Of a stretch of DNA of 57,595 nucleotides, positions 13,694 to 47,277 are shown in pieces (the first letter of the stretch is position 1; the number at the start of each line of letters is the position of its first letter). The translations under genes and the position numbers were made by a program. Below the pieces are notes generated by a model. That model had not been told where the DNA came from. It did not search any database and saw nothing but the letters and a program-made list of their open reading frames with translations. The stretch comes from Sphingomonadales bacterium BRH_c3 (lineage in GTDB: Bacteria > Pseudomonadota > Alphaproteobacteria > Sphingomonadales > Sphingomonadaceae), in contig LOET01000097.1 of assembly GCA_001515985.1 (NCBI GenBank), positions 1 through 57,595 on the forward strand. Direction: 5' to 3'.

Positions 13694-13770
13694 GGCGGAG
13701 TAGCTCAGGTGGTTAGAGCAGCGGAATCATAATCCGCGTGTCGGGGGTTCGAGTCCCTCCTCCGCTACCA
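13694..13770 (+). tRNA. tRNA-Met (anticodon CAT)
   Basis: The 77 bases fold as a complete tRNA with encoded CCA: acceptor GGCGGAG/CTCCGCT (first pair G-U), D arm with GCTC/GAGC, anticodon stem GCGGA/TCCGC around loop ATCATAA, and T arm GGGGG-TTCGAGT-CCCTC. The loop reads anticodon CAT. Elongator Met is the simplest call; a lysidine-modified tRNA-Ile2 also reads CAT but usually has a different acceptor and anticodon stem. An integrase gene follows and the 3' end recurs downstream, so this tRNA is the insertion site of the accessory region. Confidence 0.93.
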
Positions 13771-13772
13771 TT
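13754..13772 (+). repeat. Attachment-site core (left copy, within tRNA-Met 3' end)
   Basis: The 19 bases TCCCTCCTCCGCTACCATT cover the last part of the T arm, the acceptor 3' strand, CCA and two further bases. They are repeated exactly at 33,799-33,817. A P4-type integrase begins 177 bases downstream. This is the expected layout for an integrative element that restores the tRNA 3' end on insertion. Confidence 0.8.
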
Positions 13773-13948
13773 CCTTGATCCGGAAGCATCCACTATCTTC
13801 CGTATCTTTCCAAAAACCTGAACAAAAACATGGGCTAACATGTGATTCGCGTTCGCGCTTGCGCAAGCACGTCCACGTGTAGCCGGATTTGGCGTGGGGG
13901 TATTTTGGGGGTATCTCGACAGGATGTTGAACCGGAGCGATACCCCCA

Positions 13949-15202
13949 ATGCCTCTTACCGAGATTCAGGCACGAAAATCGCAGCCACGCGAGCGTCCGT
14001 ACAAGCTTTTTGATGGCGAGGGACTTTTCCTGCTGGTCAAGCCAAATGGATCAAAACTATGGCGCATGAAATACCGGTTTGGCGGCAAGGAAAAGCTGCT
14101 CTCTTTCGGTGCCTACCCAGACCTTGGCATAGCAGCTGCCCGTGAGAAGCGGTTTGCCGCCAAAGTCCTTCTCGCACGCGGCCAGGATCCACAGCACAGC
14201 GCTATTCAAAGCGCATCAGTGGATCAGGAGACATTCTATTCCGTGGCCCGGCGTTGGCACGAAAATCGCAAGGCTGCGCTAACTCCGGCTCATGCAGAAC
14301 GCGTGTGGTCACGGCTGGAAAGGGATGTTTTTCCTGCCATCGGCCAAAGCCGCATTCAGGAAATTACGTCTCAGCAAATTCTGGAAATGATCCGGAAGAT
14401 CGAAGAGCGCGGCGCGCTCGACATCAGCAGGCGGGCGAAGCAGGGGGTAGGACAGGTGTTCCAGTTCGCGATCGCATGTGGGCTGGCCTCAAGCGATCCT
14501 ACGGCGCATTTGCGCGGGGCGCTAAAGCCGCGTCCGCGGGTCAGGCACATGAGCCGTTTGCCGCTAGGCGAACTGCCGAGCTTTCTCGAGAAACTCCGTT
14601 CATACGAAGAAGACGGAGATCGGCGTTCGGCGAATACCAGGAATGCCGTGCTTTTTGCCCTCTTGACCTGGGTTCGGACCAAGGAACTTCGCTTTGCTGT
14701 GAAGTCCGAGTTTGAGGACCTTGAAGGCAAAGCTCCGGTCTGGCGTATTCCGGCCGAACGCATGAAGATGGGAAGAGAGCATCTCGTGCCCCTGTCTGCA
14801 CAGGCGCGTGAGATTGCCCGAGCCATGATCGGTTCGGCCGCCGGCGAATATGTATTCCCGGGCACCGGCATAAACAAACCCTTGTCTGAAAACACGATGA
14901 TCTACGCGCTCTATCGCATGGGCTATCACAGTCGTCAGACGGTGCATGGCTTTCGGGGACTGGCCAGCACCTGGGCCAACGAGCAGCTTGTGGAATTTGG
15001 CGAGCCGGCGATATGGATCAGGAAATACCATCAGGACTGGGTTGAGATGCAGCTCGCGCATTCGGAAAAGAACGAAGTTCGCGGTGCATATAATGCTGCC
15101 GAGTATTTGATTCCCCGCCACCGCATGATGCAGGACTGGGCAGACTTTCTTGAAAGCGGAAAGGTCGTAGTTCTGAGGAATGTCGGCAGACAGGCGGCGT
15201 GA
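13949..15202 (+). CDS. int: P4-type tyrosine integrase
   Basis: The 417-residue protein has the N-terminal DUF4102-like arm domain (LTEIQARKSQPRERPYKLFD) and a C-terminal tyrosine recombinase domain. Catalytic residues are visible: R243 in WVRTKEL, H333-xx-R336 in HGFRGLAS, H371 in LAHSEKN and Y381 in RGAYNAAEYL. P4-like integrases insert genomic islands into tRNA 3' ends, and this one starts 178 bases after tRNA-Met, pointing away from it. The frame is intact, so the enzyme may be active. No excisionase-like small gene is obvious beside it. Confidence 0.95.
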   Translation: MPLTEIQARKSQPRERPYKLFDGEGLFLLVKPNGSKLWRMKYRFGGKEKLLSFGAYPDLGIAAAREKRFAAKVLLARGQDPQHSAIQSASVDQETFYSVARRWHENRKAALTPAHAERVWSRLERDVFPAIGQSRIQEITSQQILEMIRKIEERGALDISRRAKQGVGQVFQFAIACGLASSDPTAHLRGALKPRPRVRHMSRLPLGELPSFLEKLRSYEEDGDRRSANTRNAVLFALLTWVRTKELRFAVKSEFEDLEGKAPVWRIPAERMKMGREHLVPLSAQAREIARAMIGSAAGEYVFPGTGINKPLSENTMIYALYRMGYHSRQTVHGFRGLASTWANEQLVEFGEPAIWIRKYHQDWVEMQLAHSEKNEVRGAYNAAEYLIPRHRMMQDWADFLESGKVVVLRNVGRQAA

Positions 15203-15381
15203 ACTTGATAGCTTCGCTTACAAGAACCTTGGCAGCCGGGCACGGCTCCTTGCGCTGCTTATGTGGCGCCGTCGCCGCGCCCGCCACAATGCGGCGTGCA
15301 GCCGCTTAGCTGCGATCCGCGCAAGGGCTGGTCATTCGGTTTGCGTGCAGATTGCGAATGCTTGGTCTTCAGTAAGTTTTT

Positions 15382-15792
15382 CTACAATTCACGAAGACTC
15401 ATTGCCTGGGCTGTTCCAAGCGTATCGATGTATTGCTGAAAGCGGACAACTTTGCCGTTTTCCACCGTCCAGACGTGAGCCGCTTGCACATCAAGCGGCA
15501 TTCCTGACCGCTTATGCGTAGCTTTGTAGCGTCCCAGCGCCACGACGCGGTCACCTCCATCGATAATGTCATCCATATGAACCGAGAAATCGTCCCAGTC
15601 TTCGGCCGTGCGCCCGAAGACGCCTTCCAAGATTTGTTCCGCACCCCGATACGGATTACGATCCGCGTACGGATAGTTCTCCGCCTCGTTCCAGATCACA
15701 TCAGGCGCCAGGGCGCCGGTGAACTCCGCCATGTCGCCTGCGGCAAACGCAGAGTAGATTCCTTCGATCAATGCTTTCGAAGAACTCGCCAT
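15382..15792 (-). CDS. SnoaL-like / NTF2-fold protein
   Basis: The 136-residue protein looks like the SnoaL-like group of the NTF2 superfamily: an N-terminal helix pair (ALIEGIYSAFAAGDMAEF) followed by the typical beta sheet, with DDWDDFSVHMDD and the C-terminal HVWTVENGKVVRFQQYID. Family members are small isomerases, hydrolases or ligand-binding proteins; the reaction cannot be read from the sequence. I chose the ATG at 15792 because a GGGGGT sequence lies just upstream. It is convergent with the integrase, within the first accessory module. Confidence 0.75.
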   Translation of the reverse strand: MASSSKALIEGIYSAFAAGDMAEFTGALAPDVIWNEAENYPYADRNPYRGAEQILEGVFGRTAEDWDDFSVHMDDIIDGGDRVVALGRYKATHKRSGMPLDVQAAHVWTVENGKVVRFQQYIDTLGTAQAMSLREL

Positions 15793-17537: not shown

Positions 17538-17595
17538 GGCACAACCGTCACATCGCGCCGGTAGGGCGACGGAGCGCGGACAGGGATCCGGCCGA

Positions 17596-19879: not shown

Positions 19880-19891
19880 CCGGGGATAAAA

Positions 19892-20048: not shown

Positions 20049-22925
20049 ATGAACAATCGAACTCACTCTTCGAGTCGCGCAATCACGCTCGGCGTTACGG
20101 CATCTGCCATTGCGCTCGCCGTGGCTATGCCCAACACAGCGCTGGCGCAGGACGATGGGGCAGGCAACGGGCAGAACGCACCCGACCAGGCCGAAGATGG
20201 CGAAATCCTGGTTACCGGCCTGCGCTATGGCCTTGCGACCTCGATCGACACCAAGAAAGAATCGCTGTCGATCGTTGAAGTTGTCTCCGCAGAAGAAATC
20301 GGCAAATTGCCTGATGTGTCGATTGCCGAATCGCTGGCCCGCTTGCCGGGCCTGACTTCGCAGCGGGTCAATGGCCGCTCGCAAGTCATTTCCATCCGCG
20401 GTTTTGCGCCTGATTTCGGCACCACGCTGCTTAACGGCCGCCAGCAGGCCAGTTCGGGGGACAACCGCGCGGTCGAGTTCGACCAGTATCCGTCCGAACT
20501 GCTCTCGAGCGTTGTCGTTTACAAGACCCCCGACGCCGGGATCGCGGGTATGGGGCTTTCGGGCACGGCAGACCTTCGTACCGTTCGGCCACTGGCATAT
20601 GGCAAGCAGGCAATCGCGATGAATGTGCGCGGCGAACTCACCTCAGGTGACAAGCTCAACGATGACGTTCGCAAATATGGCGGCCGCCTTAGCGTCAGCT
20701 ACATCGACCAGAACGAGGCGGGTACGTTGGGCTGGGCGCTGGGCTATGCCTACCTCGATTCGCCTTCGAAGAACCAGCATTACAAGGGGTACAATTACGA
20801 AACCTTTGGAGCGGATTTTGTGCGCGACCGGATTTCGCCCGACAGCGCGGATACCGCCACATTCCTCACGGGCCAGGAAATTTTCGCCACTTCGCGGCTA
20901 AACAAGCGGCATGGCATGATCGGGATCCTCGAGTGGGAGCCGAGTGACGCAGTTCATCTCACCTCCGATCTTTATTATTCCAAGTTTAAGCAGCGCGAAG
21001 TTACCCGTGGCGCGCAGTGGTTCTCGAATGTCTGGGCGGACAATCAGAACTTCTCCAATGTCACCACCACCAAATTTGCCGGATCCCAAGTCGCGGTAAC
21101 GGGCACCAATACCGGGGTTGCGCCGATCATCCGCAACGACCTCAATACGCGCGAAGACGATCTGTTCTCCGCAGGGCTCAATGGCGAATTCGAGATGACC
21201 GATCGCCTGCGCTTTACCGGTGACCTGTCCTATTCGCGCAATGAGCGTGACGAGAGCATCACCGAAACCTATGCCGGTTTCGGCTGCTGCGCCACCAGCG
21301 CTACGCAGAACGCCAACCGGGTGTTCGATACGATCGACTGGGACATTTCGGGCGCTCTTGCCGGCGGGTTCCCGACTTATTCCACCGGACTCAACTATGC
21401 CGATGCCTCGCAAGTATCGCTGGGCGACCGCGCGCCGTGGGGCGGCTGGGGGCATGACGGCCAGACCAAGGAACCGCATGTAACCGAGGAAGTCTATGCG
21501 CTCGACCTCGGATTCCAGTACGATGTTGACGGCTTCTTCGACCGCTTCGATGTGGGCATGAACTTCACCCACCGCGAGAAGCGCAAGCGCGTGGACGAGT
21601 TCGATCTCAATCTCAAGAACGGCCGTCTTCAGTCGCTCGTTGGCAGCGAATTCCTCGCCAATCCCACAAGTCTTGGCTTTGCCGGTTTCGGAGACGTTCT
21701 GGCGGTCAATCTGGAGAAGGCCCTTCCGGTGTTCTACGACCGGATTACCTTCATCAACAACGACACCTTCGACAAGGCGTGGATGATCGAGGAGGAAGTG
21801 CTCACGCTTTATGCCAAGGGCACGATCGACGCGGGCAATCTGCGCGGCAATATCGGCGTCCAGGTGGTCAACCAGCGCCAGGAATCGACTGGCAGCGCGA
21901 TCAACCGCACGCAAACCCCGACTGAGGTGACCGAAATCACCCGCCGCGCAAGCTATACCGATATCCTGCCGAGCATGAACCTGATCTACGATCTGGGTGG
22001 TGGGCACAACTTGCGCCTTGCAGCCGCTCGGCAGATGGCGCGTCCGCGCATGGACGAGATGCGGGCGAACTTCCTGCCCAGCTTCTCCAACCCCTGCGGC
22101 GGCAGCCCGCCCTGCGTGCCCGGCCAGGAGATTAATCCCTGGTCCGCGACTGGCGGTAATCCGCTGCTTGAGCCATGGCGGGCCTGGGCGTTTGACGTTT
22201 CGTATGAATGGTATCTAGGCAAGGCGAGCTACATAAGCATTGCCGGTTTCTACAAGGATTTGAGCAACTTCATCTTTACCCAGCGCCAGCCGTTCGACTT
22301 CACCGGTCTGCCGCTGCCACCAACCGCGGCCAACATTCCCGATGGAGTCATCATCAGCCCGATCGGCCAGATCAACCAGCCGGCTAACGGCCAGGGTGGC
22401 TCGATCAAAGGGATCGAATTGACTGCTGCGCTCGAACTTGGCCGGATAATCGAACCGCTCGACGGGCTTGGTGTGATCGGGACTTATTCCTACACGGACT
22501 CGAATCTGCGGCCGACCGCGAGCGAGAACCCTGATGTGATCCAAGCGACACGCATCGCCGGTCTTTCAGGCGATGTTTACAACGTCACCGGATATTTCGA
22601 GAAGTGGGGTTTCCAGGCAAGGATGAGCTATCGTTGGCGTTCAGCGTTCAAGGGTGAGGTGACACAGCTGTTCGCGGTTCGCGGTGCAACCGAAATCCTC
22701 GCAGAAGAGGACGCGTCGGCGCAGATCGGCTACACCTTCCAGCCTGGATCGACGTTGGAGGGGCTGGGCCTGTTGTTCCAGGTTAACAACCTCACCAATT
22801 CACCCTTCCGCACCCGCCTCGGCGTGGATGCGGGTGGTGTGCGAACTGCGGACGGATCCTTCCTGCCTGAGGTGGTGGAGAAGTACGGGCGCCAGTTTCT
22901 GTTTGGCTTTAGCTACAAATATTGA
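20049..22925 (+). CDS. TonB-dependent receptor (TonB-Xanth-Caul type)
   Basis: A 958-residue outer-membrane receptor, probably for import of oligosaccharides from a glycan. It has a signal peptide ending at about LAQ (residue 30), a short linker, a TonB-box-like EILVTGLRYG, the plug domain (SIAESLARLPGLTSQ, ISIRGFAPDFGTTLLNGRQ), a long beta-barrel and a C-terminal aromatic residue (FGFSYKY) as expected for BAM recognition. The KLPDVSIAESLARLPG form is typical of the Xanthomonas/Caulobacter carbohydrate receptor group. I chose the ATG at 20049, seven bases after GGAGGGG, over an upstream in-frame start. Two LacI operators lie in front. Confidence 0.94.
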   Translation: MNNRTHSSSRAITLGVTASAIALAVAMPNTALAQDDGAGNGQNAPDQAEDGEILVTGLRYGLATSIDTKKESLSIVEVVSAEEIGKLPDVSIAESLARLPGLTSQRVNGRSQVISIRGFAPDFGTTLLNGRQQASSGDNRAVEFDQYPSELLSSVVVYKTPDAGIAGMGLSGTADLRTVRPLAYGKQAIAMNVRGELTSGDKLNDDVRKYGGRLSVSYIDQNEAGTLGWALGYAYLDSPSKNQHYKGYNYETFGADFVRDRISPDSADTATFLTGQEIFATSRLNKRHGMIGILEWEPSDAVHLTSDLYYSKFKQREVTRGAQWFSNVWADNQNFSNVTTTKFAGSQVAVTGTNTGVAPIIRNDLNTREDDLFSAGLNGEFEMTDRLRFTGDLSYSRNERDESITETYAGFGCCATSATQNANRVFDTIDWDISGALAGGFPTYSTGLNYADASQVSLGDRAPWGGWGHDGQTKEPHVTEEVYALDLGFQYDVDGFFDRFDVGMNFTHREKRKRVDEFDLNLKNGRLQSLVGSEFLANPTSLGFAGFGDVLAVNLEKALPVFYDRITFINNDTFDKAWMIEEEVLTLYAKGTIDAGNLRGNIGVQVVNQRQESTGSAINRTQTPTEVTEITRRASYTDILPSMNLIYDLGGGHNLRLAAARQMARPRMDEMRANFLPSFSNPCGGSPPCVPGQEINPWSATGGNPLLEPWRAWAFDVSYEWYLGKASYISIAGFYKDLSNFIFTQRQPFDFTGLPLPPTAANIPDGVIISPIGQINQPANGQGGSIKGIELTAALELGRIIEPLDGLGVIGTYSYTDSNLRPTASENPDVIQATRIAGLSGDVYNVTGYFEKWGFQARMSYRWRSAFKGEVTQLFAVRGATEILAEEDASAQIGYTFQPGSTLEGLGLLFQVNNLTNSPFRTRLGVDAGGVRTADGSFLPEVVEKYGRQFLFGFSYKY

Positions 22926-34398: not shown

Positions 34399-34568
34399 TG
34401 GATAATCTCCATTCGCTGGAAGGTGAGACGTGTGTGTCTGGATTCATTCTGACCCAAGCTGAACTACACCCTTTCAACGCAAAGATCGAATGGCGGCCAT
34501 CTGGCTCTACGTTGAAGGTCAGCTTCAGATTACTTTAGATGGGAGGCCTCTTGCGCGCCAGCGCCGCG

Positions 34569-35249
34569 TCAAATGACCTCTCTCTTGCGGTAGGATCGGC
34601 CGATTGGGACCTCCATTCCGTTGTCGAGCGTCACGGACGCCCGGCGCTGTTCGAAGATCCGGTCGCGCCGCACGACAAAGGATCGGTGGACTTGAACGAA
34701 GTCCTTTTCGGGCAAGGTTTCAAGCAGCTTTCGCAGCGTGGTCGTGGCGAGACAATTTCCTTCGTCGCTCCAGACCTTGACGAAGTTTCCCTCCGCCTGA
34801 AAACCGGAGATGCGATCCAGCCTCAACCGGCGGGTTGCACCGTCGACCCGCAAGGCCAGATATTCCTGCTCGCTTGGTGTGTCCTGTTTCTGCTCGGCCA
34901 GGCGCCGCCGCGCCTTTTCCAGCGCCGCAGCGAACCGGTCCGAGCTAACCGGCTTTAGCAAGTAGTCGACCACGTCGAGTTCGAAGCCGTCGAGCGCATG
35001 CTCGCGGTGCGCGCTGACGATGATTGCGAGGGGAGGGGCCTCCAGCCCGCGCAGCAGGTCGAGGCCGCCGAAGCGCGGCATGCGGACGTCGAGAAACATC
35101 AGGTCGACGGGAACTTCGCTGATCTTCGCGAGGGCTTCGGCGGCATTGTGACACTGGCCCACAACCCGCAAGTCAGGGTGCGCGCGGCAATGGTGCAGCA
35201 GGACTTCGTGCGCCAAAGGCTCGTCATCGACCAGAAGCACGTTCAGCAT
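34569..35249 (-). CDS. LytTR-type response regulator
   Basis: A receiver domain with acidic pocket (LLVDDEPLAHE) and phospho-acceptor D54 (FLDVRMPRF) is joined to a C-terminal LytTR DNA-binding domain (RLDRISGFQAEGNFVKVW, FVQVHRSFVVRRD, IGRSYRKRE). I chose the ATG at 35249 because MLNVLLVDDE is the normal start; the open frame to 35282 adds unlikely residues. It overlaps the end of the upstream histidine kinase gene by 7 bases, so the two form a two-component operon. The ABC/M1-peptidase genes diverge from this pair and are plausible targets. Confidence 0.93.
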   Translation of the reverse strand: MLNVLLVDDEPLAHEVLLHHCRAHPDLRVVGQCHNAAEALAKISEVPVDLMFLDVRMPRFGGLDLLRGLEAPPLAIIVSAHREHALDGFELDVVDYLLKPVSSDRFAAALEKARRRLAEQKQDTPSEQEYLALRVDGATRRLRLDRISGFQAEGNFVKVWSDEGNCLATTTLRKLLETLPEKDFVQVHRSFVVRRDRIFEQRRASVTLDNGMEVPIGRSYRKREVI

Positions 35250-36745: not shown

Positions 36746-36970
36746 TACTCCTGCCTTGCCGCTACCGATTGGGTTGGCACCTTCTGCACTTTCCTTCGAA
36801 TTAAATTCATTCGTGAATGACGAACGGCGCAAAAACGATGATGAGCGGCCGCGTGAACCGATTCTGGTCAATGACGGGTCGTTTGTCACTACCAGCGTCC
36901 ACTTGGTCATTCGGCGATTGCGAGTTGTCCGCCCGCCCGCAAGGCCAGTGCTCCTGCAATTGGAGGCATC

Positions 36971-37840
36971 ATGCTGGCAATCCGCAATCTCTCAAAGACC
37001 TATCGCGGCGCGGTTCGTGCACTCGACGGGCTGGAACTGGACATCACTGCCGGGATGTTCGGCCTGTTGGGCCCCAACGGAGCGGGCAAGAGCACTCTGA
37101 TGCGCACGCTCGCCGGGCTTCAATTGCCCGATCAGGGGAGCATCCATTTCGATGGTGTGAGCGTGCTTGATGATCCATTCGCGCTGCGGAAACGCCTTGG
37201 CTACCTGCCACAATCCTTTGGCGCATACCCCTATATCGGCTGCCGCGCGTTGCTGCGCCACATGGCCGTGCTGAAAGGTTTGCCAGATTCAATCGAGACC
37301 CAATCCGAGGTGGATCGGCTGCTCGAACTTACCAATCTCACGCATCACGCGCGGCGGCCCGTAAGCACCTTTTCGGGGGGTATGCGCCAGCGTTTTGGCA
37401 TCGCGCAGGCGCTGCTGGGCGATCCAGCGCTACTGATCCTCGACGAGCCGACTGCCGGGCTCGATCCGGAGGAGCGGCTGCGGCTTTACAACCTCTTGAG
37501 CCAGCTAAGTGACGACAGGATCGTGCTGCTTTCGACCCATATAGTCGATGATGCCGAGCAGCTCTGCCCCGAAGTCGCGATCATAGTCGGCGGGCGCATC
37601 AGTGCGCGAGGTGGCACGGAACTGTTGGTGAAGGAACTCGACGGCTGCGTCTGGCAAGGATCGGCCGAGCCGAGTGCGCAGAGCGGCGCGGTCCTGCTCA
37701 ACTCGGCCTATCGCCAAGGCGTTCAAATTTACCGCTACTTCAGCCGCACCTGTCCAGCTGCAGGTTTCGAGGCGGTCCGGCCGAATCTTGAAGACCGCTA
37801 TTTCCTTGAAATGCGCGGGTGCGAGGTTGGAGCGTGTTAG
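36971..37840 (+). CDS. ABC transporter ATP-binding protein
   Basis: A standard ABC-2 type ATPase of 289 residues: Walker A GPNGAGKST (residues 34-42), the Q loop at YLPQSFGAYP, signature STFSGGMRQR, Walker B ALLILDEPTAGLD and the H-loop LLSTHIVDD. The C-terminal 60 residues are family-specific. The gene is coupled to the permease-peptidase gene, which begins within its last codons. It diverges from the LytS/LytTR genes with about 225 bases between the kinase and ATPase starts. Confidence 0.95.
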   Translation: MLAIRNLSKTYRGAVRALDGLELDITAGMFGLLGPNGAGKSTLMRTLAGLQLPDQGSIHFDGVSVLDDPFALRKRLGYLPQSFGAYPYIGCRALLRHMAVLKGLPDSIETQSEVDRLLELTNLTHHARRPVSTFSGGMRQRFGIAQALLGDPALLILDEPTAGLDPEERLRLYNLLSQLSDDRIVLLSTHIVDDAEQLCPEVAIIVGGRISARGGTELLVKELDGCVWQGSAEPSAQSGAVLLNSAYRQGVQIYRYFSRTCPAAGFEAVRPNLEDRYFLEMRGCEVGAC

Positions 37841-40800
37841 GCCGGCTAAAGCTGGGCAATGAATGGCGGTTCCTGAGCCGCCAACCGTTGGTATGGCTGG
37901 CACTGGCCGGTGCTGTAATAATGAGCGCGGTTATGGCCGGGGGCAGTCCGGCTCCTTCGGGCAGCACGCCAGCTGAGGCGCTTCTGCGGGTCAACCTGTT
38001 CATCCCGGCCTTCATCCTGCCATTCCTTGCCGCAGCACTCGGGCCGACAGTGTTCCTCCGCGAGGTCGAACATGACATGAGCGAGATCGTCGGCAGCTAT
38101 CCTATGACTGTCACGCACTGGCTGGGGGTGCGGCTGGGTAGCTGCCTGATCGTGCTTGTTGCGGCCTGCGCGCTGGCGCAGCTTGCCATGCTGGCCACGC
38201 TGGCATCTGCCGATCCTGCTGCCGTGCCAGCGCTAACGCTGCAGTCGCTGGGCTGGTTGCTCGTGATCCATGCTCCAGCCTGCCTGATCTGGTCTTGCCT
38301 GCTTGCGCGCTTGAGCTGCGCAACGGGGCACCCCGGCATCCTCTATTTCGCCGCCGGCTTTGGTTGGGTAGCCTATATCGCGCTCGCAATGCTGACAGGC
38401 ACACCGCTGATTGGCGGAAGCTATGTCGCATGGGAACCATTGCGCCAGGCTCTGATCATCTTTGACCCTTACGCGATCACCGCGCTGGTGAACCCTATGC
38501 CCGAGAACGGTCTGCTGCAATCGCGCGCTGCGAACATCGCGCTTGGCAGGATTGCATGGCTTGCGGTGTGCCTGTGGATGCTGCGCGGGATTATCGACTT
38601 GCCTGCCCGCAGCCGGCGAGAAGAGAAGGCCGGCAAGATTGAAAATCCAGATCGGTCGCTTCTGCCCGATGTGGTCAGCAGGCTACCTGGCTGGGCAAGG
38701 CACGTTGGCCTTCACCTGCGCCATGTCATGCGTGATAGGGCCTTCCCCTTGATGGTCGGGGGGTGGCTCCTGCTGCTTGGCCCTGAAGTCTATAGCGGCC
38801 TGAGTTATGCCGAGCCTTTGGCGCAGGTCGATCCGGACAGTCGCGACGCTCTCAACCGTGTGATGTGGGACATTGTGCCGATCGCAGCAGCCCTCGTGCT
38901 GCTCTACGCGGCAGACCGGGTTTGCCGGATGTATGGCGCTGTTCGGATGCATGAGCTGGTTGCGGCGACGCCCTATCGTTCATGGCTGATGGTAGGTGTC
39001 CAAATCCTCGCCTTGTGGACTGTGGCGGTATTTTTCCTCGCACTTGCCGGGTTGGCGGTGGTGGCGGCGCAGCTGGCAGCGGGAAGTCCGATCGAGCTAT
39101 GGGAATATATGCTTCAGCTGGGGCTCGCGCTTCCGCAACTGCTGCTCTTTGGCATGCTGTTTGCGGCAGTTCACGCGCTCATTCGGCTGCGATTTGCAGC
39201 CAATCTGGTCAACCTTCTGCTGGTCATACTGGGTTTCACCAGCCTGGCGCCGTCACTCGGTTTCCATCACCCGCTCTGGCGGCCCCTTGCATCCCCGTTG
39301 GCCGCGCCGGACCATTACTGGGGCTTCGAAAGTAGCATCGCGGGCTACGCGCCATTTCTGGTCTTCTGGTCTGCAGTTTGCCTGGCGCTAGTCCTGCTGG
39401 GGATGGTGTTAAACCATCGCGGCATGGCATTTCGTCAAATGTATTGGCGCAGTGCTCTGCGGCATCCAGCCATTGCGCTGGTCCTGACCCTGGCTGTCGG
39501 CAGTGCCATTCAAGGGCGCCTGATCCATGTGGCATTTGCCGATGAAGGCTTGCTGGTCAGCCCAGACGAGCGGATTGCACAGCGCGCTGATTATGAGCGG
39601 AACTATGGGCAATGGGATGCGGTGGCCCAGCCTGATGTCGCGGCAGTGCGATTCCAGATCGATTTTCATCCGTCCTTGCGCAGCGCGCAGCTGCGCGCGT
39701 CGATGACGTTGGTCAACCGCACGAAAGTGCCGATCGAACAGGTGCTGGTGGGCCGCAACCAGATCCCCTGGGATGGCGATGTCCGCATGGGAGACGCAGC
39801 GTTGGTGCAAGCCGATGCACGATTGGGGCAGGATATCTTCCGCTTTCAAAGGGCGATGCAACCGGGCGAGACACGCGAACTGAGCATGGCGGCCTTGTTC
39901 AGGCAATCCGGGCTTGTGACGGCGTCTATGCCGCTTGTGCTGCGCCCTACATTCAGCAGTCTGCCCGCGCATGCATTGTTGCCCGTGATCGGTTTCGAGC
40001 GGGAATTCACCTTGCGTGACCCTGATCTGCGCCGCGCGCAAGGACTGCCCGAGCGGCAGTTGACGCCGCCCAGCCAATTGCCTCCACAGTCTGCGCGACT
40101 GTCAGCGGACCTCGCGAATATCGAGACCCTGATCACCACCGAGAAAAGCGATCACGCGATCGCTCCTGGAGAGCTGGTGAGCAGCTGGCAGGCGAACGGG
40201 CGCAATCACTTCCTCTATCGCAGCGAGGGCGCGATGCGGAATCTTCCAGCTTTCTATTCGGTCCCCTGGCGGCCACAGACATGGAAAGCAGGCCCGATTG
40301 CGCTGGAAGTGCATGCCCCGCAGCGTCTCTCTGCCGATGATCCCAATCTGCGTGCCATGCGTGACACGCTGGAATGGCTCGGCAGCGAAGTTGCGCCCTA
40401 TCAGTCGCGCACCTTGCGCCTGATCGCGGTGCCGGAGGCGGGGCTGAGCGGCTATGCATTGCCGCAGACAGTTCTGTTGTCACATAGGCTGGCAATTCGC
40501 GCGTATCCAACGGCCGATGCGGGGTTCAGCCAGGCCTATCGCCGCGCGGCGCATGAGACCGCGCACCAATGGTTCGGTCACATGATCGGACATGGCATTC
40601 CCGAAGAACACGGATTTCTGGTTGAATCGCTCACCAAATACGCCGAGCTCGTGATTGTCGAGCGGCATGAGGGGGGCGATGCCATGCAGGCGCTCGTCGC
40701 TTACGAATGGGATCGGTATCGCGGGGCGAGGCTGGATCTCGCTGCACCCGTTGCGCCGCTAATCGATGCCGAAGAGAGCGAGGACATGTATTCGCGTGCG

Positions 40801-41055
40801 ACGCTGGTGTTTGCCTGCCTTCGGCAACAGATTGGCGACGAACCCATACTCAAGGCGCTCCGGGCAATTACCAGCCAAGGCGAGACGACTGGCAGGCCGG
40901 TGCGATCGGTCGATTTCGTCGATGCCCTCATCGAAGCAGCCAATCCTATGGCAGAAGGAACCATCCGGGCACTCTTACTCGATCGTGCGCCATTACCGGT
41001 TACCTTGGCAAAGTCCGGTTGCAACCTGAATGACCCACAGTTTCTCGCGCGGTGA
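37834..41055 (+). CDS. ABC-2 permease fused to an M1-type metallopeptidase domain
   Basis: This 1073-residue protein has two sets of six or so membrane helices (about residues 15-230 and 290-560), then a large extracytoplasmic M1 aminopeptidase-like part. The zinc motif H907-E908-T-A-H911 (HETAHQWFGHMIGH) is intact, and the third ligand is probably E931 in LVESLTKYAE, one residue further than in leukotriene A4 hydrolase. The GTG at 37834 overlaps the ATPase stop and gives VLGRLKLGNEW. Such fusions are known in sphingomonads and xanthomonads as ABC permease/M1 family proteins; their substrate has not been settled. It probably exports or processes a peptide under LytS/LytTR control. Confidence 0.9.
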   Translation: MLGRLKLGNEWRFLSRQPLVWLALAGAVIMSAVMAGGSPAPSGSTPAEALLRVNLFIPAFILPFLAAALGPTVFLREVEHDMSEIVGSYPMTVTHWLGVRLGSCLIVLVAACALAQLAMLATLASADPAAVPALTLQSLGWLLVIHAPACLIWSCLLARLSCATGHPGILYFAAGFGWVAYIALAMLTGTPLIGGSYVAWEPLRQALIIFDPYAITALVNPMPENGLLQSRAANIALGRIAWLAVCLWMLRGIIDLPARSRREEKAGKIENPDRSLLPDVVSRLPGWARHVGLHLRHVMRDRAFPLMVGGWLLLLGPEVYSGLSYAEPLAQVDPDSRDALNRVMWDIVPIAAALVLLYAADRVCRMYGAVRMHELVAATPYRSWLMVGVQILALWTVAVFFLALAGLAVVAAQLAAGSPIELWEYMLQLGLALPQLLLFGMLFAAVHALIRLRFAANLVNLLLVILGFTSLAPSLGFHHPLWRPLASPLAAPDHYWGFESSIAGYAPFLVFWSAVCLALVLLGMVLNHRGMAFRQMYWRSALRHPAIALVLTLAVGSAIQGRLIHVAFADEGLLVSPDERIAQRADYERNYGQWDAVAQPDVAAVRFQIDFHPSLRSAQLRASMTLVNRTKVPIEQVLVGRNQIPWDGDVRMGDAALVQADARLGQDIFRFQRAMQPGETRELSMAALFRQSGLVTASMPLVLRPTFSSLPAHALLPVIGFEREFTLRDPDLRRAQGLPERQLTPPSQLPPQSARLSADLANIETLITTEKSDHAIAPGELVSSWQANGRNHFLYRSEGAMRNLPAFYSVPWRPQTWKAGPIALEVHAPQRLSADDPNLRAMRDTLEWLGSEVAPYQSRTLRLIAVPEAGLSGYALPQTVLLSHRLAIRAYPTADAGFSQAYRRAAHETAHQWFGHMIGHGIPEEHGFLVESLTKYAELVIVERHEGGDAMQALVAYEWDRYRGARLDLAAPVAPLIDAEESEDMYSRATLVFACLRQQIGDEPILKALRAITSQGETTGRPVRSVDFVDALIEAANPMAEGTIRALLLDRAPLPVTLAKSGCNLNDPQFLAR

Positions 41056-41490
41056 CATTCTCTGGTCGTCTTCCGGTACCGTCGGGTCCGTTCCCTGACC
41101 GGGAGCAGGCAAATTGGGAATGACGCGAAAGGCGATTGCCAGCCCCGTTTGTCTCGCCATCCAACTTGGACGCGGCCATGCAGACCGCACGCGAGCGGCG
41201 AGGGCTTCACCCGGCCATCGAATCCCCTGCCACCTCATTTCGCTAGACACGCTCAGGCATATTGCTGGTGGACGATCAATGCCCAGGTCTGCCATGTAGG
41301 TCAGGTTGGCCTGGAAACCGGGGAACTCGATCGCTACCACCGCTGCTGAGCCCGACGGACCTTCTTGCTGGAATCATCGTCCAATTCAGCGACGAGCGCT
41401 GCCGGTCTGGCTGTTATAGGGTATGTGCGTCGCTGTTCCATTTCGCGATAGATCGGTTCTCTCGCGCATTGATCAGCAAAAGGGAGTTTG
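41056..41490. other. Intergenic region with a possible orphan frame (minus strand, 40993-41340)
   Basis: This 435-base gap precedes the antiporter gene. A 115-codon minus-strand frame from a GTG at 41340 overlaps the end of the permease-peptidase gene. Its beginning (VAIEFPGFQANLTYMADLG) reads like protein, but I do not recognise it and there is no ribosome site. It may be a decayed gene. Nothing else is seen apart from the AGGGAG ribosome site of the next gene at 41,481. Confidence 0.4.
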
Positions 41491-43944
41491 ATGCAGGAAC
41501 AGGCAATCGTCATTGCGTTAATAGGCGTGTTGGGCATCGGCGCTCAATGGCTCGCATGGCGCTCCAACCGTCCCGCCATCGTGCTCATGCTGGGCGCCGG
41601 GTTCTTGGCTGGACCGGTGCTTGGCATCTTCGATCCGGAGCATGCCTTCGGCGAATTGCTCGAGCCGATGATCGCGATCGGTGTCGCGCTGGTGCTTTTC
41701 GAAGGCGGGCTAAGCCTCAATTTCCGCGAATTGCGCGATAACAGCGATGCTGTGGGGCGAATGGCCACGATCGGCGTCCTGCTCGGCTGGCTGTTCGGGG
41801 CGCTGGCTGCCAACGCGATCGCCGGGCTGGTGTGGCCCGTTGCCGTGCTGTTCGGAGGTATCCTGATTGTGACGGGGCCGACCGTGGTCGTTCCGCTGCT
41901 TCGGCAGGCGACGGTTCAGCCAAGGCCAGCTTCGCTCCTCAAGTGGGAAGCGATCGTCAACGATCCGACCGGTGCGATGTGCGCGGTGATCGCCTACGAA
42001 TATTTCCGACTTTCGCGGACCGGCGCGACGTGGATGGAGATCATCCCGCCGATGCTTTTCGCAGCAGCGCTGGCCGCTGTACTTGGCTATGCCGCCGCCC
42101 GTTTCGTTGCTTGGTCCTATCCGCGCGGGCTGGTTCCGGAATACCTCAAGGTTCCGGTCTTGTTTGTAACGGTGATCGCCCTGTTCGTGATCTCCAACGC
42201 GATAGAAAAAGAAGCCGGGCTGGTGGCGGTAACGGTGATGGGCATCGCGCTCGCCAACATGAACGTCCAGTCGCTGCGTTCGATCCATCCGTTCAAGGAG
42301 ACCGTCGCGATCCTGCTGGTCTCGGGCATCTTCATCTTGTTGTCGGCCTCGTTGAAATGGTCCGATCTCGCCTTTCTGAACTGGCGCTTCGGCTTGTTCC
42401 TGCTGGTGCTGCTGTTCGTGGTCCGCCCGGCGACTGTGCTGCTGACGCTGCTCGGCAGCTCGGTCCCTTGGAACGAGCGCCTGTTCGTGGCCTGGATCGC
42501 GCCACGGGGCATCGTTCTGGTTGCTATCAGCGGGCTTTTCGCCTTGCGCCTCACCGAACTGGGCTACGCGGACGGCAATGTCTTGATCGGATTAAGTTTT
42601 GCCGTGGTGGTGGCTACGGTAATGGCGCACGGCTTCACCATCGATCTTGCGGCCAAGTTGTTCCGGGTCAAGGGAGAAACCCGCCCGGGCCTGCTTCTAG
42701 TCGGCAGCACACCTTGGACCATCGCCCTTGCCGAACTCATGCAGGAGCTGAAGACCCCCGTCATGGTGGTCGATTCCAGCTGGCAGCGCCTGAAGCCAGC
42801 CCGGCGAAGGAACCTGCCCTATTATCACGGAGAGATCCTCAACGAGGCGACGGAGCACAATCTCGATCTGTCCCCCTATCAGGCGCTTGTTGCGGCGACC
42901 GACAACGAGGCTTACAATACGTTGGTATGCAGCGAATTCGCGCACGAAATCGGACGGGATGCCGTCTATCAGATAGGCCAACCAGGTGACGACGATGATC
43001 GCCAGGCGATTCCAGAGGCCTTGCGTGGCCGTGCCTTGTTCGAATCCGGCTACGGGGTCGACGACATTGCCGAGCGGCTCGATCAAGGCTGGCAGCTGCG
43101 CAAGACGAAGCTTTCCGACAACTTTAAGTTCGATGATGCCAAGGACGTTCTGCCACCTTCAACAAACATGCTCATGCTGTTGAAAGGAGACGGCCGCATG
43201 CAGTTCTTCACACACGCGGCCCGTCCGAATCCTGGTCCGGGCGATACCGTCATCAGCTTCGCCCCATCAAAGGATCGCACGCAAGTCAAGCGCGAGAAGG
43301 CGGCGGTAAAAGCCAGCAAGGCACTGCCGGTGCTCCTTGCATTCATGATTCTTGTAGGGTGCAACAATGATCGAAAGGACGACACAGGCCCCGGGTCCGA
43401 AACGCCCGCGCCACCGCCGACCTCGATCATGCGACCTGATATCGTCGCAGCCGAACCGGCGCCAAGCGTACTCGGCCCCCTCGAGGTGACGATTGGCTTT
43501 GCGGACGCAGCTGCGGAACTGAGCGACGAAGCGACCGAAAAGCTGCAAGGGATGCTCGCCAGCCCGCAGTTCGAGGCAGGGGCGGCGATCTATATCGGTG
43601 CGCACACTGACTCCGCCGGAAGCGACACTGTCAACATGAAGGTCTCGCGCAAACGGGGCATGCTGGTGCGAGACTGGTTCGTGGAACATGGCGTCGCATC
43701 GGAGCGCATCACGCTCGTCGCCTTCGGCGAGCAGAATCCGGTGGAACCCAACGCTCTGCCCGATGGCTCTCCTAACGAAGAAGGCCGCAGCGCCAACCGC
43801 AGGGTAGTCGTGCGGATGGTTGCATCGCCCGAAACGCCGTCCTCCCGTCGCAAGCCGACCTTGGCTGAAGATCTGGTCAACAAGTTGAACGATGACGAGG
43901 CTCCGTCGGCCGCAATCGAGGATGATCGCGGTCGCGCCCGGTAA
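41491..43944 (+). CDS. CPA-type cation:proton antiporter fused to lipobox and OmpA-like domain
   Basis: One uninterrupted 817-codon frame joins three parts. Residues 1 to about 390 form a Na+/H+ exchanger with some twelve helices (FLAGPVLG, LFEGGLSLNFRELR, GPTVVVPLLR, EAIVNDPTGAM, AWIAPRGIVLVAISG). Residues about 399-583 form a cytoplasmic RCK/TrkA-N-like domain (LLLVGSTPWTIALAELMQEL). Then comes KASKALPVLLAFMILVGC: basic stretch, hydrophobic core and a perfect lipobox with Cys624. A proline-rich linker leads to an OmpA peptidoglycan-binding domain at about 664-776 (IYIGAHTDSAGSDTVN, VAFGEQNP, NRRVVVRM). The ATG at 41491 follows AGGGAG. The antiporter part resembles NhaP/KefB types often found in stress islands. 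Cys624 may be lipidated after cleavage, or the segment may be a plain membrane helix. Confidence 0.88.
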   Translation: MQEQAIVIALIGVLGIGAQWLAWRSNRPAIVLMLGAGFLAGPVLGIFDPEHAFGELLEPMIAIGVALVLFEGGLSLNFRELRDNSDAVGRMATIGVLLGWLFGALAANAIAGLVWPVAVLFGGILIVTGPTVVVPLLRQATVQPRPASLLKWEAIVNDPTGAMCAVIAYEYFRLSRTGATWMEIIPPMLFAAALAAVLGYAAARFVAWSYPRGLVPEYLKVPVLFVTVIALFVISNAIEKEAGLVAVTVMGIALANMNVQSLRSIHPFKETVAILLVSGIFILLSASLKWSDLAFLNWRFGLFLLVLLFVVRPATVLLTLLGSSVPWNERLFVAWIAPRGIVLVAISGLFALRLTELGYADGNVLIGLSFAVVVATVMAHGFTIDLAAKLFRVKGETRPGLLLVGSTPWTIALAELMQELKTPVMVVDSSWQRLKPARRRNLPYYHGEILNEATEHNLDLSPYQALVAATDNEAYNTLVCSEFAHEIGRDAVYQIGQPGDDDDRQAIPEALRGRALFESGYGVDDIAERLDQGWQLRKTKLSDNFKFDDAKDVLPPSTNMLMLLKGDGRMQFFTHAARPNPGPGDTVISFAPSKDRTQVKREKAAVKASKALPVLLAFMILVGCNNDRKDDTGPGSETPAPPPTSIMRPDIVAAEPAPSVLGPLEVTIGFADAAAELSDEATEKLQGMLASPQFEAGAAIYIGAHTDSAGSDTVNMKVSRKRGMLVRDWFVEHGVASERITLVAFGEQNPVEPNALPDGSPNEEGRSANRRVVVRMVASPETPSSRRKPTLAEDLVNKLNDDEAPSAAIEDDRGRAR

Positions 43945-44031
43945 CCCGATCAGTACGATTGCCCGCCCTCACTGCCGATGGGGACCATTTTTCTTGCTCG
44001 CTCGGATCTATCGAATTTCTTCGAAGCGCTT

Positions 44032-44094
44032 GCAGATCCGCGTGTCGAGGGTTCGAGTCCCTCCTGCGCTACCATATCATTCAGGAATTGCGGG
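44032..44094 (+). repeat. tRNA-Met 3'-half repeat, copy C
   Basis: Bases 44,037-44,074 correspond to the 3' half of tRNA-Met (end of anticodon stem, variable loop, T arm, acceptor strand, CCA). Compared with the intact tRNA there is G instead of C in the acceptor strand (CTGCGCT) and an A in the T stem at 44,048. Twenty further bases, to 44,094, match the copy at 47,215-47,277. Over 63 bases the two copies differ at two positions. No 5' half precedes it. Confidence 0.85.
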
Positions 44095-44386
44095 ATTGCG
44101 ACCGTAGCTGCTGGGGCCGTTTGCAGCTTACTTCATGGCGTCTGATTGCGGGTATTTGAAAGAACCCACCTCTCTGGAGGAGTGCTGGTAGCGTGGTTGA
44201 GGTGGAACGGCCGACGCCCCTTGTGGATTGAGCAAAGCCTGTCACTGCATTGATGCAGGGCTAAGGCGTGGAGCTTGATCTTGATTTGAAGCCCGGCATT
44301 CAGAGAACCAAAGATAAATTGTCAGAGCCGGGAACTTCGCCGAACTAATACCATCCAATGTTTGCACGATTGCACGGAGGCAAACA

Positions 44387-45034
44387 TTGAAAACGACATC
44401 GCTGGCTGACCAGACTTTTACGGCCCCCCTTCACGAGAAAGATTCGCGTCAGGGTATCGAAGCTTATTCGAGCACCTTTTCGCCGCTACAGGATGCCATC
44501 CGGACAATGATCATCGCCGCCGGAGACGATCCTGACCGTGAAGGCCTGAAGGAGACGCCCGCAAGAGTTGAACGGGCATATTCAGAGTGGTTTGCTGGTT
44601 ACTCGATCGACCCAGGCGACCTGCTTCGCAAGACGTTCAGTGAAACCAGCGAATACGAAGAGACAGTGCTGCTGCAGGATATTCCTATAGTGTCCACCTG
44701 CGAACATCACCTTGCACCCATAATCGGCAGAGCACATGTGGCTTATCGTCCGCATCGGCGCGTGGTCGGTATCTCAAAACTGTCGCGACTGGTCGATGCA
44801 TTTGCAAGGCGCCTACAGCTCCAGGAAAGGCTGACGCAGCAGATCGCGGGGGCAATTGAGGCCGCGCTTCAGCCGCGGGGAGTGGCAGTAGTCATCGAGG
44901 CCAGTCACGCCTGCATGTCCACTAGAGGTGTCAACCAGCATGGGGTAACAATGAAAACGCAATGCTGGCTGGGTGATTTCAAACTGGACACTTGCCTACG
45001 AGCCGAGCTGCTTGGCTCGCTGTCTGCTGCATAG
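44387..45034 (+). CDS. folE: GTP cyclohydrolase I
   Basis: FolE converts GTP to dihydroneopterin triphosphate, the entry to tetrahydrofolate and other pterins. The zinc ligands are visible in [11 protein letters not shown] and [11 protein letters not shown], and [21 protein letters not shown] and QERLTQQIA are typical. The length of 215 residues fits. The start is a TTG at 44387, set by ACGGAGG six bases upstream. It is coupled to the sigma-factor gene, which starts four bases after its stop. Its position in a four-gene island module without other folate genes suggests an extra, possibly stress-induced copy. Confidence 0.94.
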
Positions 45035-45037
45035 GAA

Positions 45038-45802
45038 ATGACCGTGACCGGTAAGCCCAATCGCGCGATTGATTATCACAACATCGATGATCTCGAGCTT
45101 GCAGCGCTGGCTGCTGATCGTGATCCGCAGGCCGTGCGCACCATCACGACGCGAAATAACCAAAGGCTTTTCAGGGTCGCGTGGGGGATTCTTCGTAACC
45201 GGACGGAAGCGGAAGACGCTGTGCAAAGTGCGTATCTTCGTGCGTTCTCTTCGCTCGACAAGTTTCAAGGCCGCTCGGCTCTTTCGACCTGGCTGACCAG
45301 GATCGTCATAAACGAGGCGCTTGGTGCAAAAAGAGCGCGCGAACGGCAACGCCAGATGCTGGAGACAAATGAAGTGGCCGTATTGGACCTGTATCGGGAA
45401 GAACTCATGCAAGGATCTCTTGACCGAGCCAGCAACGGAGAGCAGGTCGCGCGCATACAGATCAGGGGAATTCTGGAACGGGCGATTGCAGCCTTGCCCC
45501 AGGAATTCAGGCTGGTCTTCATCCTCCGGGAGGTTGAAGGACTAAGCGTCAAGGATACTGCCGATGCATTGGGATTGGTCGAGGGAACGGTCAAGACCCG
45601 CCTTCACAGGGCGCGGTTGAGACTCAAGGAAATGCTTGCTCCCGAAGTTCGCGACCTCTTGCATGGGACGTTCCCGTTCGCGGGGCCAGACTGCGACAGA
45701 ATGACGAATGCCGTAGTTGCCGAAGTGTGCGTCTCAGTATCCCGAAAATCCCAGGCAAACAGGAAAAATCCAACCCCTGCGCGGACGCCGGGGAACCTTT
45801 GA
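45038..45802 (+). CDS. ECF-type sigma factor with C-terminal tail
   Basis: Sigma region 2 (RLFRVAWGILRNRTEAEDAV, AYLRAFSSLDKFQGRSALS with TWLTRIVINEAL) and region 4 (RAIAALPQEFRLVFILREV, LSVKDTADALGLVEGTVKTR) are complete. After region 4 there is a tail of about 55 residues with FPFAGPDCDRMTNAVV, similar to the C-x-R-containing tail of one ECF group. No anti-sigma gene lies beside it; the tail could itself sense the signal, or control may be transcriptional. It follows folE by 3 bases and precedes the DUF4142 gene, so it may regulate this module. Confidence 0.92.
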   Translation: MTVTGKPNRAIDYHNIDDLELAALAADRDPQAVRTITTRNNQRLFRVAWGILRNRTEAEDAVQSAYLRAFSSLDKFQGRSALSTWLTRIVINEALGAKRARERQRQMLETNEVAVLDLYREELMQGSLDRASNGEQVARIQIRGILERAIAALPQEFRLVFILREVEGLSVKDTADALGLVEGTVKTRLHRARLRLKEMLAPEVRDLLHGTFPFAGPDCDRMTNAVVAEVCVSVSRKSQANRKNPTPARTPGNL

Positions 45803-45861
45803 GCGTCAATCCCATCCAATGAAGTGACCGCCTGATGCGGTAGCTTAACGAGGAGATTGAA

Positions 45862-46410
45862 ATGCTCAGGGTAATGTTCTTGGGGATGGCTATTGCGTCC
45901 AGTTCGCTCGCAGCAGCATCAAACGATAATTCAAGCAGCGCCGCCAGCACGCAAGAGACCAGCATTGGCGACGCCGAGATTGCGCACATAGCCTATACCG
46001 CCGGACAACTGGATGTCGTGGCTGCACAACAGGCGCTAGAACGATCGACCAATAAAGACGTGCGCGCCTTTGCCGCCACCATGCTGCGTGATCACAAGGC
46101 CGTGAACGATCTGGCCCTGGCGCTGGTCACAAAACTGGGCGTCACGCCCCAGGCGAACCCCGTAAGCCAAAGCCTGACAGACGAGGCTGATGCTGTGCGA
46201 GCACGCATCGCCAAGCTCTCGGGCAAGGCGTTTGACCGCGCATATATCGACAGGGAAGTCGGATTTCATGCGGCAGTCAACGAAGCCCTGCGGAGCACGC
46301 TTATTCCTGCTGCGCAACATCCCGAACTCAAGGACCTCCTTGAGCAAGGACTCGCCTTGTTCAGCGCTCATCAACAACATGCCGAGGACCTCGCGAGAGA
46401 ACTTCAATGA
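45862..46410 (+). CDS. DUF4142 family exported protein
   Basis: The 182-residue protein has a signal peptide (MLRVMFLGMAIASSSLAAA) and the DUF4142 four-helix pattern: IAHIAYTAGQLDVVAAQQAL, NKDVRAFAATMLRDHKAVND and FDRAYIDREVGFHAAVNEAL. DUF4142 proteins resemble ferritin-like bundles and occur in stress or outer-membrane-related islands; the function is unclear. AGGAG lies nine bases before the ATG. Its last codon overlaps the start of the cupredoxin gene. Confidence 0.92.
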   Translation: MLRVMFLGMAIASSSLAAASNDNSSSAASTQETSIGDAEIAHIAYTAGQLDVVAAQQALERSTNKDVRAFAATMLRDHKAVNDLALALVTKLGVTPQANPVSQSLTDEADAVRARIAKLSGKAFDRAYIDREVGFHAAVNEALRSTLIPAAQHPELKDLLEQGLALFSAHQQHAEDLARELQ

Positions 46411-46748
46411 CAGCGCGACGCAGATTTGTCGGGGTGCTCGCCTGGGCGGCCTTGGTAATTGGTTCTTCCACGCTACTCGCGACGAATTCTCAATCACGCA
46501 GGATACACGTGATTTCTATCGACAGGATGAAGTTCGACAGTGTGCCCGCGAACCTGAAGGTTGGCGATACCATCAGGTGGGTCAATCGTGATGCCGTTCC
46601 GCACACTGCCACTGCGCGTGACCGGAGTTTTGATATCACAATACCGGGTAACAGCATCCGCGAAATGAAGATTCTGAAAAAAGGACAACATGAATTCTTC
46701 TGCCGCTTTCACCCGGCCATGAAAGGCGTCCTTTCTGCTGCCCCCTGA
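46407..46748 (+). CDS. Cupredoxin-domain (plastocyanin/amicyanin-like) copper protein
   Basis: A 113-residue exported protein: signal segment FVGVLAWAALVIGSSTLLA, then a cupredoxin fold with type 1 copper ligands visible as H in AVPHTATA and C, H and M in FFCRFHPAMKG. Such proteins shuttle electrons in the periplasm. It overlaps the DUF4142 gene by four bases (ATGA). The ECF sigma-DUF4142-cupredoxin order suggests a periplasmic redox or metal stress unit. Confidence 0.92.
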   Translation: MTARRRFVGVLAWAALVIGSSTLLATNSQSRRIHVISIDRMKFDSVPANLKVGDTIRWVNRDAVPHTATARDRSFDITIPGNSIREMKILKKGQHEFFCRFHPAMKGVLSAAP

Positions 46749-46807
46749 AGGAGGTCCTTTCTGTTACCCGCAAACGGATTTGCCTGCACGGCAGTCAATT
46801 TGCGGGG

Positions 46808-46842
46808 TTCCCCTCTGCGATACTCCACGTCGCAGAGGGGAA
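46808..46842. terminator. Perfect 13-bp inverted repeat (hairpin) after cupredoxin gene
   Basis: TTCCCCTCTGCGA at 46,808-46,820 and TCGCAGAGGGGAA at 46,830-46,842 form a perfect 13-bp stem with a 9-base loop. It lies 60 bases after the cupredoxin stop. There is no long T run, so it may be a terminator, a message-stabilising hairpin or an element-end sequence. Confidence 0.55.
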
Positions 46843-47214
46843 TATTCGGGGTTCGTATTTTCCCATGGTCCGGGACCAACTTCTGATGAAAAAACTGAGA
46901 GTGGGGGCATTGGCGCGAGGCTACTGCAAAGTGCCACAACAAGCCGAAGACTTAGCTTACCTATTAGCCGTCGCACTGTTTGCGAGGCAATTCCTCTGCT
47001 TGGGGGGAGTGCCTACGGGGTGCAGGCGGGGGCAATTCAAAACGTCCGAAAATTGCGCGGCTAGCGACGGTGTGGCCTTGTGGCGCATGTCGCATTAACC
47101 CGTTTCGCGTCAATCCCGCGGCGGCGGGCGGCAGGGCGTCTTCTGCCCCGCCTGATCGGCTCCATCCGGGTATGGGGCGAGCTGAAAGTTTGGACTTCGA
47201 CCTTTTGTAAGTCC

Positions 47215-47277
47215 GCAGATCCGCGTGTCGGGGGTTCGAGTCCCTCCTGCGCTACCATATCATCCAGGAATTGCGGG
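47215..47277 (+). repeat. tRNA-Met 3'-half repeat, copy D
   Basis: The 40 bases 47,219-47,258 match the intact tRNA at 13,732-13,771 with one difference (G at 47,249 where the tRNA has C at 13,762). The whole 63 bases match copy C, 3,183 bp upstream, at 61 positions. Upstream is a 400-base gene-free stretch (46,843-47,214) in which I see nothing. No 5' tRNA half precedes it, so this is an integration relic. Confidence 0.85.

Follow-up and report, generated by a model that had tools for sequence, protein, structure and literature searches.

The window analysed here, an entire contig of Sphingomonadales bacterium BRH_c3 (C97; 57,595 bases), belongs to a 2.5-Mb genome assembly that consists of 157 contigs and is 82% complete. 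It carries an intact tRNA-Met gene and, downstream on the same strand, three further copies of the 3' end of this gene, which divide the DNA into segments 1, 2 and 3 (Table 1). The label tRNA-Met is the ARAGORN call on the anticodon cat, which does not tell elongator tRNA-Met and tRNA-Ile with the same anticodon apart. A preliminary description of this sequence had proposed that the chain of copies arose by serial insertion of accessory modules at one tRNA gene. The three same-strand copies described there were found again and the segment lengths stand at 20.0, 10.2 and 3.1 kb, but the starts given for the two outer copies (44,032 and 47,215) each lie 4 bases too early: the 4 bases before 44,036 and 47,219 agree between both copies and are not tRNA.

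As had been noted, none of the three copies contains the tRNA 5' half, the BLASTN matches covering the 3' end only. A scan of the plus strand of the window for the 17-nt core of the tail, allowing up to 3 mismatches, returned the tRNA gene and the three copies and no other place. The 44- and 47-kb copies begin at tRNA nucleotide 39 rather than 61 and have in common a C-to-G change in the acceptor-stem part that is absent from tRNA-Met; among the matches listed, the same change is also present in one 17-mer of genome G087. The flanks after these two copies agree at 19 of 20 bp, and the similarity stops at both ends of about 60 bp. The flank after the 33.8-kb copy resembles both (a score this high is reached by 0.08-0.13% of roughly 20,000 random window pairs), whereas the flank behind the intact tRNA-Met is unrelated to the flanks of the three copies. 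Across the comparison set of 114 genus genomes, which includes the genome of the window, the flank of the 44- and 47-kb copies was found in no other genome, and it had no match in viral contigs. Two further flank matches at 3 mismatches were discarded, as the one in G031 lacks a tRNA and the one in G105 is an intact tRNA-Met.

Table 1. Features of the 57,595-base window around tRNA-Met.
Feature	Position	Strand	Basis and content
Left chromosomal flank	3,958-13,619		Seven genes collinear in 5/5 relatives compared, Pfam for six: LysR regulator, 3'-5' exonuclease/HRDC protein, class II tRNA synthetase (presumably aspS), presumed acyl carrier protein, ketoacyl synthase, YceG, 2'-5' RNA ligase-like protein
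Alkyl-sulfatase-like gene	11,080-13,083	-	Alkyl_sulf_dimr, metallo-beta-lactamase fold; between the YceG and 2'-5' RNA ligase-like genes
Intact tRNA-Met (cat)	13,694-13,770	+	ARAGORN; single tRNA called in the window
Segment 1, integrase element, 20.0 kb	13,771-33,798		Bounded by tRNA-Met and the 33,799 copy; Pfam: SnoaL-like protein, DUF6445, cupin, LacI, TonB receptor, GH3, tryptophan-halogenase family, GH30, MFS, endo/exonuclease-phosphatase family, GDSL lipase, GH2
Tyrosine integrase	13,949-15,202	+	Pfam Arm-DNA-bind_3, Phage_int_M, Phage_integrase; 178 bp after tRNA-Met
tRNA-Met 3'-end copy, 19 nt	33,799-33,817	+	BLASTN 19/19, E 3e-4
Segment 2, 10.2 kb	33,818-44,035		Pfam of six proteins: DUF302, LytTR response regulator, histidine kinase, ABC ATPase, large M1-peptidase-domain protein, Na/H exchanger with OmpA domain
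tRNA-Met 3' half and shared flank	44,036-44,094	+	BLASTN 38/40 at 44,036-44,075, E 7e-13
Segment 3, 3.1 kb	44,076-47,218		Pfam of four proteins: GTP cyclohydrolase I, ECF-type sigma factor, DUF4142
tRNA-Met 3' half and shared flank	47,219-47,277	+	BLASTN 39/40 at 47,219-47,258, E 5e-14
DNA right of last copy	47,259-57,595		Pfam: OmpA, response regulator, histidine kinase, alpha-amylase family, MFS, LacI, TonB receptor

Segment 1 is organized as a genomic island, with an integrase gene adjoining the intact tRNA and a distal direct repeat of the tRNA 3' end. The integrase gene is the only tyrosine-recombinase gene on the contig, in agreement with the preliminary description, and we take its domain set as that of a P4-type integrase. 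The 3' end of tRNA-Met is the insertion site and the left attachment (att) site of this first element. When the 57,565 positions of the window were scored with a matrix of 21 distinct right ends from relatives, the 30 bp ahead of the 33,799 copy ranked third, so this copy fits the role of right att site for segment 1; 27 such ends had been found, and those matching the tRNA over a greater length were excluded. Neither the 44- nor the 47-kb copy fits the matrix, and the att lengths differ. The possibility that the window integrase made all copies was therefore rejected; more than one type of integrase lies behind them. The cargo of segment 1 is a sugar-use set (TonB receptor, GH3, GH30, GH2, LacI and MFS). 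A Pfam scan of 15 segment 1 proteins, which did not include all short open reading frames (ORFs), found no conjugation gene, and on these proteins the segment would not be classed as an integrative and conjugative element (ICE).

Related integrases occupy the same position in other genomes. Eighty integrase loci of relatives were fetched, of which 16, from named relatives, were scanned for tRNAs. The tRNA just upstream of the integrase is tRNA-Met at 11 of these loci, tRNA-Gln at three and tRNA-Ser at one; none was called at the last, where the 17-mer is present. In all eight of loci L047-L054 (56-78% integrase identity) it is tRNA-Met, with the integrase 177-201 bp behind it. The stretch behind tRNA-Met was read in 39 genus genomes, over up to 20 kb (40 kb in G029). 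Directly behind the tRNA, seven of them carry a full relative of the window integrase and one (G021) the N-terminal part only. In two others, G032 and G019, a relative lies 10-12 kb downstream of tRNA-Met beside a displaced tail (15 of 17 core bases), an arrangement expected if a newer element entered in front of an older one.

In the genus as a whole, tRNA-Met is an insertion hot spot. A DEAD-box/DbpA helicase gene, oriented towards the tRNA, was probably its neighbour on the right in the ancestral state. Of 61 genomes searched, 45 yielded coordinates for both genes and were used to measure the distance between them; in 20 of the 45 the genes are on different contigs. Empty or nearly empty sites, for which the preliminary description had suggested a search, exist in G045 and G037, where 51 and 315 bp, respectively, separate the tRNA-Met match from the helicase gene. 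The distance is 1.3-103 kb in 14 further genomes. At its largest, in G023 (103 kb), the interval includes a 17-mer copy that just 37 bp separate from the helicase match, and in G051, G010 and G049 such a copy is found 0.4-2.5 kb before the helicase gene.

When the 114 genomes were searched with the 17-nt core at up to 1 mismatch, 194 matches were obtained, versus 4 with a reversed control pattern, so the tail copies are not due to chance. A match is present in 108 of the 114 genomes; 58 have two or more, which in 48 of the 58 are all on one strand, strands of draft genomes not being comparable between contigs. Among the matches listed, 15 of the genomes with known tRNA-Met coordinates have a second 17-mer on the contig of the tRNA, on the same strand in 15/15 and downstream in 14/15, at 2.3-236 kb. 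The repeats are therefore not scattered, nor is the region fixed: the GH30 protein of segment 1 occurs in 5 and the M1-peptidase protein of segment 2 in 4 of the 114 genomes, the window included in both counts, and in the others neither adjoins tRNA-Met. With empty or nearly empty sites, a variable region and tails that are not scattered, the serial insertion originally proposed is well supported.

Segments 2 and 3 have att-like repeats on both sides and no integrase or transfer genes in the proteins scanned, features expected of cis-mobilizable elements (CIMEs). No recombinase or transfer families appeared among the ten segment 2-3 proteins scanned, where short ORFs were not all covered and no six-frame search for serine recombinases was made. 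Integrase remnants were sought in both segments by tblastn and with a profile from 80 integrase sequences, and none was found; neither was any remnant of the family of the window integrase found elsewhere in the window. Weak tblastn matches at 44 and 47 kb had to be dismissed as remnants, being the tRNA tail itself, because the query frames extended upstream into the tRNA. In 397 family genomes used for the segment searches, most matches to segment 2-3 DNA concern the Na/H exchanger gene alone (65-78% identity). G095 holds two neighbouring segment 2 pieces (67-69%) about 1.2 Mb from its tRNA-Met, adjoining a 52%-identical relative of the M1-peptidase protein. To the right of 47,259 the accessory DNA probably continues, as the contig ends without reaching the helicase gene.

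Chains of tails in relatives hold modules that likewise lack an integrase. In G029 (7 contigs), tRNA-Met is accompanied by six tails over 38 kb. PF00589 gave no match between tRNA-Met and the helicase gene in this genome at E up to 1e-5, and no recombinase was found among the 27 Pfam-scanned of 36 chosen chain ORFs. One module of about 5.2 kb, encoding a TPR/CHAT protein and a YadA-like protein but no integrase, is shared with G100 at 95.2% identity over 4,894 columns. A further 96 bp at its left end agree at 99%, with 300-500 bp between the two parts unaligned. One base beyond the CCA of the tail this similarity breaks off, and the DNA around and upstream of the tRNA is only 71.9% identical. 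Counted from tRNA-Met, this module is the first in G100 but the third in G029; a tail-bounded module has thus been exchanged and others added in front or removed. Ordinary homologous recombination via the tails may have brought about the exchange. Other modules, in G077 and G100, contain broken copies of one second integrase, 80% identical to each other over 95 amino acids and without BLAST similarity to the window integrase at E 1e-3. Integrase decay is thus real at this locus, while integrase-free exchange seems to occur as well. The earlier supposition that older integrases were lost consequently holds in part: broken copies exist in two modules of relatives, a third module, common to two species, has none at all, and the window contains no remnant.

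Serial insertion at tRNA-Met, accompanied by decay and involving elements of at least two kinds, very probably explains the chain. The recombination step would be that established for tRNA-targeting integrases. The tRNA 3'-end copy on the circle of an element would recombine site-specifically with the chromosomal tRNA-Met, the incoming copy completing the tRNA and the displaced 3' end marking the distal border. Each newcomer would enter beside the intact tRNA and shift older elements to the right. Segment 1 (13.77-33.8 kb) would accordingly be the newest, inserted by its own P4-type integrase, and segments 2 and 3, probably together with the DNA past 47.26 kb, would be older, of at least one other kind and with a longer att site. 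Under this serial model each shared flank would be the left end of the element behind it, so segment 2, segment 3 and the DNA after the last copy would constitute one family unlike segment 1. Now without an integrase, segments 2 and 3 would be fixed, or would move only with an outside integrase of matching specificity. Taken together, insertion, decay and possible mobilization by outside integrases fit the data best.

Several observations weigh against serial insertion. The helicase gene is absent from the contig of the window; the sole match to it in this genome is on contig C46, where it is cut by the contig end. Of 25 genomes with tRNA-Met and the helicase gene on one contig, eight are arranged otherwise and a ninth has 634 kb between the two. 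Not every extra tail is at the tRNA-Met site: in G012, the exception to the downstream position, the copy lies 1.55 Mb from tRNA-Met, and in G095 the intact tRNA is on one strand and a tail copy on the other, about 1 Mb away. The right-end matrix is loose, as three of its 21 members score below zero in leave-one-out tests (range -6.6 to 28.6). Since segments 2 and 3 contain no remnant, integrase loss is not demonstrated by the window itself. A role of the two segments as a transferable unit was dismissed, there being no such unit in the 397 family genomes and only two weak matches in plasmids, and for this reason we can only infer that they were formerly mobile. Moreover, the shared flanks of the outer copies could come from local duplication.

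Such a duplication would have produced the 44- and 47-kb copies from one tail with its flank, segment 3 then not being an element. It would account for the roughly 60 bp common to both copies, with a mutation that tRNA-Met lacks and a flank not shared by the other genus genomes searched, but not readily for the abrupt end of the similarity on both sides of these 60 bp, for the similar flank of the 33.8-kb copy, or for the chains of tails in relatives, which hold different DNA between the tails; we consider it quite improbable. It is also unlikely, if somewhat less so, that the chain was built elsewhere and arrived whole via one integrase, in one or two insertions here instead of three or more. 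The single intact integrase found for the whole chain would suit such a composite, and whole transfer of tandem composites is described in the available portion of a review (PMC5704250). However, the 33.8-kb copy alone fits the right end of an integrase element, the outer copies differ in att length and flank, and the same module has different ranks in relatives. In a partial form of this history, segments 2 and 3 may have arrived jointly at an earlier time. Short-read assembly can be misled by repeats of 17-60 bp, and contigs of different islands might have been joined through short tRNA tails in an assembly so fragmented and incomplete. Nevertheless, the tails differ in length and sequence, and the same layout is seen in the good assemblies of G029 and G100 (2 contigs), which makes an artefact of this sort highly improbable.

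The integrase-free modules of relatives allow yet another interpretation, in which some tRNA-Met chains would be a cassette system without an integrase of its own. Modules of about 1-17 kb, each ending in a dedicated site, would pass from species to species with the help of unlinked integrases acting in trans, in the manner of integron cassettes and with the tRNA as entry point; segments 2 and 3 would be a second cassette family with its own shared left flank. The dedicated site would be a conserved stretch around GTAGACGCGTCTAC followed by the 48-nt tRNA 3' half. For these relatives, the finding of broken integrases in modules of G077 and G100 weakens the interpretation in its pure form, and we regard it as improbable. 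The window itself would not be classed as an integron, given the P4-type integrase domains, sites that are tRNA 3' ends and segments of 3-20 kb; attC structure was not searched for.

A similar stretch precedes 12 tails in all; G100 has five of these, G029 four, and G077, G078 and G096 a single one each. It contains the exact palindrome GTAGACGCGTCTAC before 4 of the 12 and variants before the other 8, and in L037 and L038 (G029) and L155-L157 (G100) it stands directly before many of the 48-nt tRNA tails. With a strict pattern, the palindromic site was found at 8 places in 5 of the 114 genus genomes, all at the tRNA-Met locus, and had no match in viral contigs. The stretch may be an arm site, a terminator or a recombination site.

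The mechanism favoured here, serial insertion, is already known, and the locus adds another instance. In Dehalococcoides, islands lie in tandem downstream of ssrA, and a 20-bp repeat of the ssrA 3' end bounds each one; according to the part of that account available, 15 of them lack an integration module, a conserved motif precedes the repeat, and cis-mobilization and accretion are proposed (PMC3146451). As there, the window has tandem segments behind one RNA gene, bounded by copies of its 3' end; in contrast to the serine recombinase and ssrA of Dehalococcoides, it has a P4-type tyrosine integrase, tRNA-Met and at least one further att type. Closer in target are five ICEs reported from 14 Erythrobacter genomes, which are flanked by tRNA-Met-CAT, with the integrase just behind the tRNA (PMC4919336). 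The same kind of tRNA and the same integrase position are found here, whereas segment 1 carries sugar-use genes and, among the proteins scanned, no conjugation gene. As far as that account is known to us, chains of tails and integrase-free modules at tRNA-Met do not feature in it (PMC4919336). An additive flexible genomic island of Alteromonas, fGI1, receives successive gene cassettes at a tRNA (PMC4119200), and recurring copies of the last 20 nt of tRNA-Lys mark an island in Methylophilaceae (PMC10872708); these excerpts share with our locus a conserved tRNA as target for successive cassettes but involve other tRNA genes, other bacteria and other cargo. In CIMEs as reviewed, integrase and transfer genes are lost, att sites are kept and a later element enters the same gene, and the course of insertion, decay and new insertion is set out in the portion consulted (PMC5704250). 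Unlike in those CIMEs, nothing was seen of earlier integrase genes in segments 2 and 3, and mobilization is putative. In the literature listed, with subscription journals mostly outside the coverage, no title or abstract opening mentions tail chains at the tRNA-Met of this genus.

For this genus of free-living alphaproteobacteria, the locus means that metabolic gene blocks are gained at one fixed place. The order of their arrival should be readable, the block nearest tRNA-Met being the newest, and the module shared by G029 and G100 offers a test case for whether such elements still move, and by which integrase.

Some minor observations concern the neighbourhood of related integrases and tails. 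At nine loci (L007, L009, L014, L016, L017, L019, L021, L011 and L025), a related integrase is followed by a member of a large protein family of about 1,424 amino acids, of which L025 has a shorter piece; several of these loci have genes that by eye are primase-like and ParB-like, and the family may mark the front of a large conjugative element. One G029 module opens with a TIR-domain protein (L037, 8095-9216), whose frame begins just before a tRNA tail and which gave weak matches to ThsB-type and SAVED-TIR defence models; by eye, the first protein of a G100 module seems TIR-like too. Defence models had no match for the eight small or unknown window proteins given.

A fourth tRNA-Met tail in the genome of the window (42 nt, 95%) lies on contig C127 at 21,229-21,270 (L003, 1501-1542). 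C127 as a continuation of the chain is unsupported, as the gene at its left end, presumably infC, in 11/11 relatives searched either has a contig other than that of tRNA-Met or is separated from this tRNA by 0.5 Mb or more. A gene near this tail resembles one that in G048 sits between tRNA-Met and the helicase gene, and because of it C127 may still be linked to the chain. Finally, the alkyl-sulfatase-like gene left of tRNA-Met is outside the conserved left-flank set and looks like a separate small insertion, since the genes on either side of it are adjacent in all five relatives compared.

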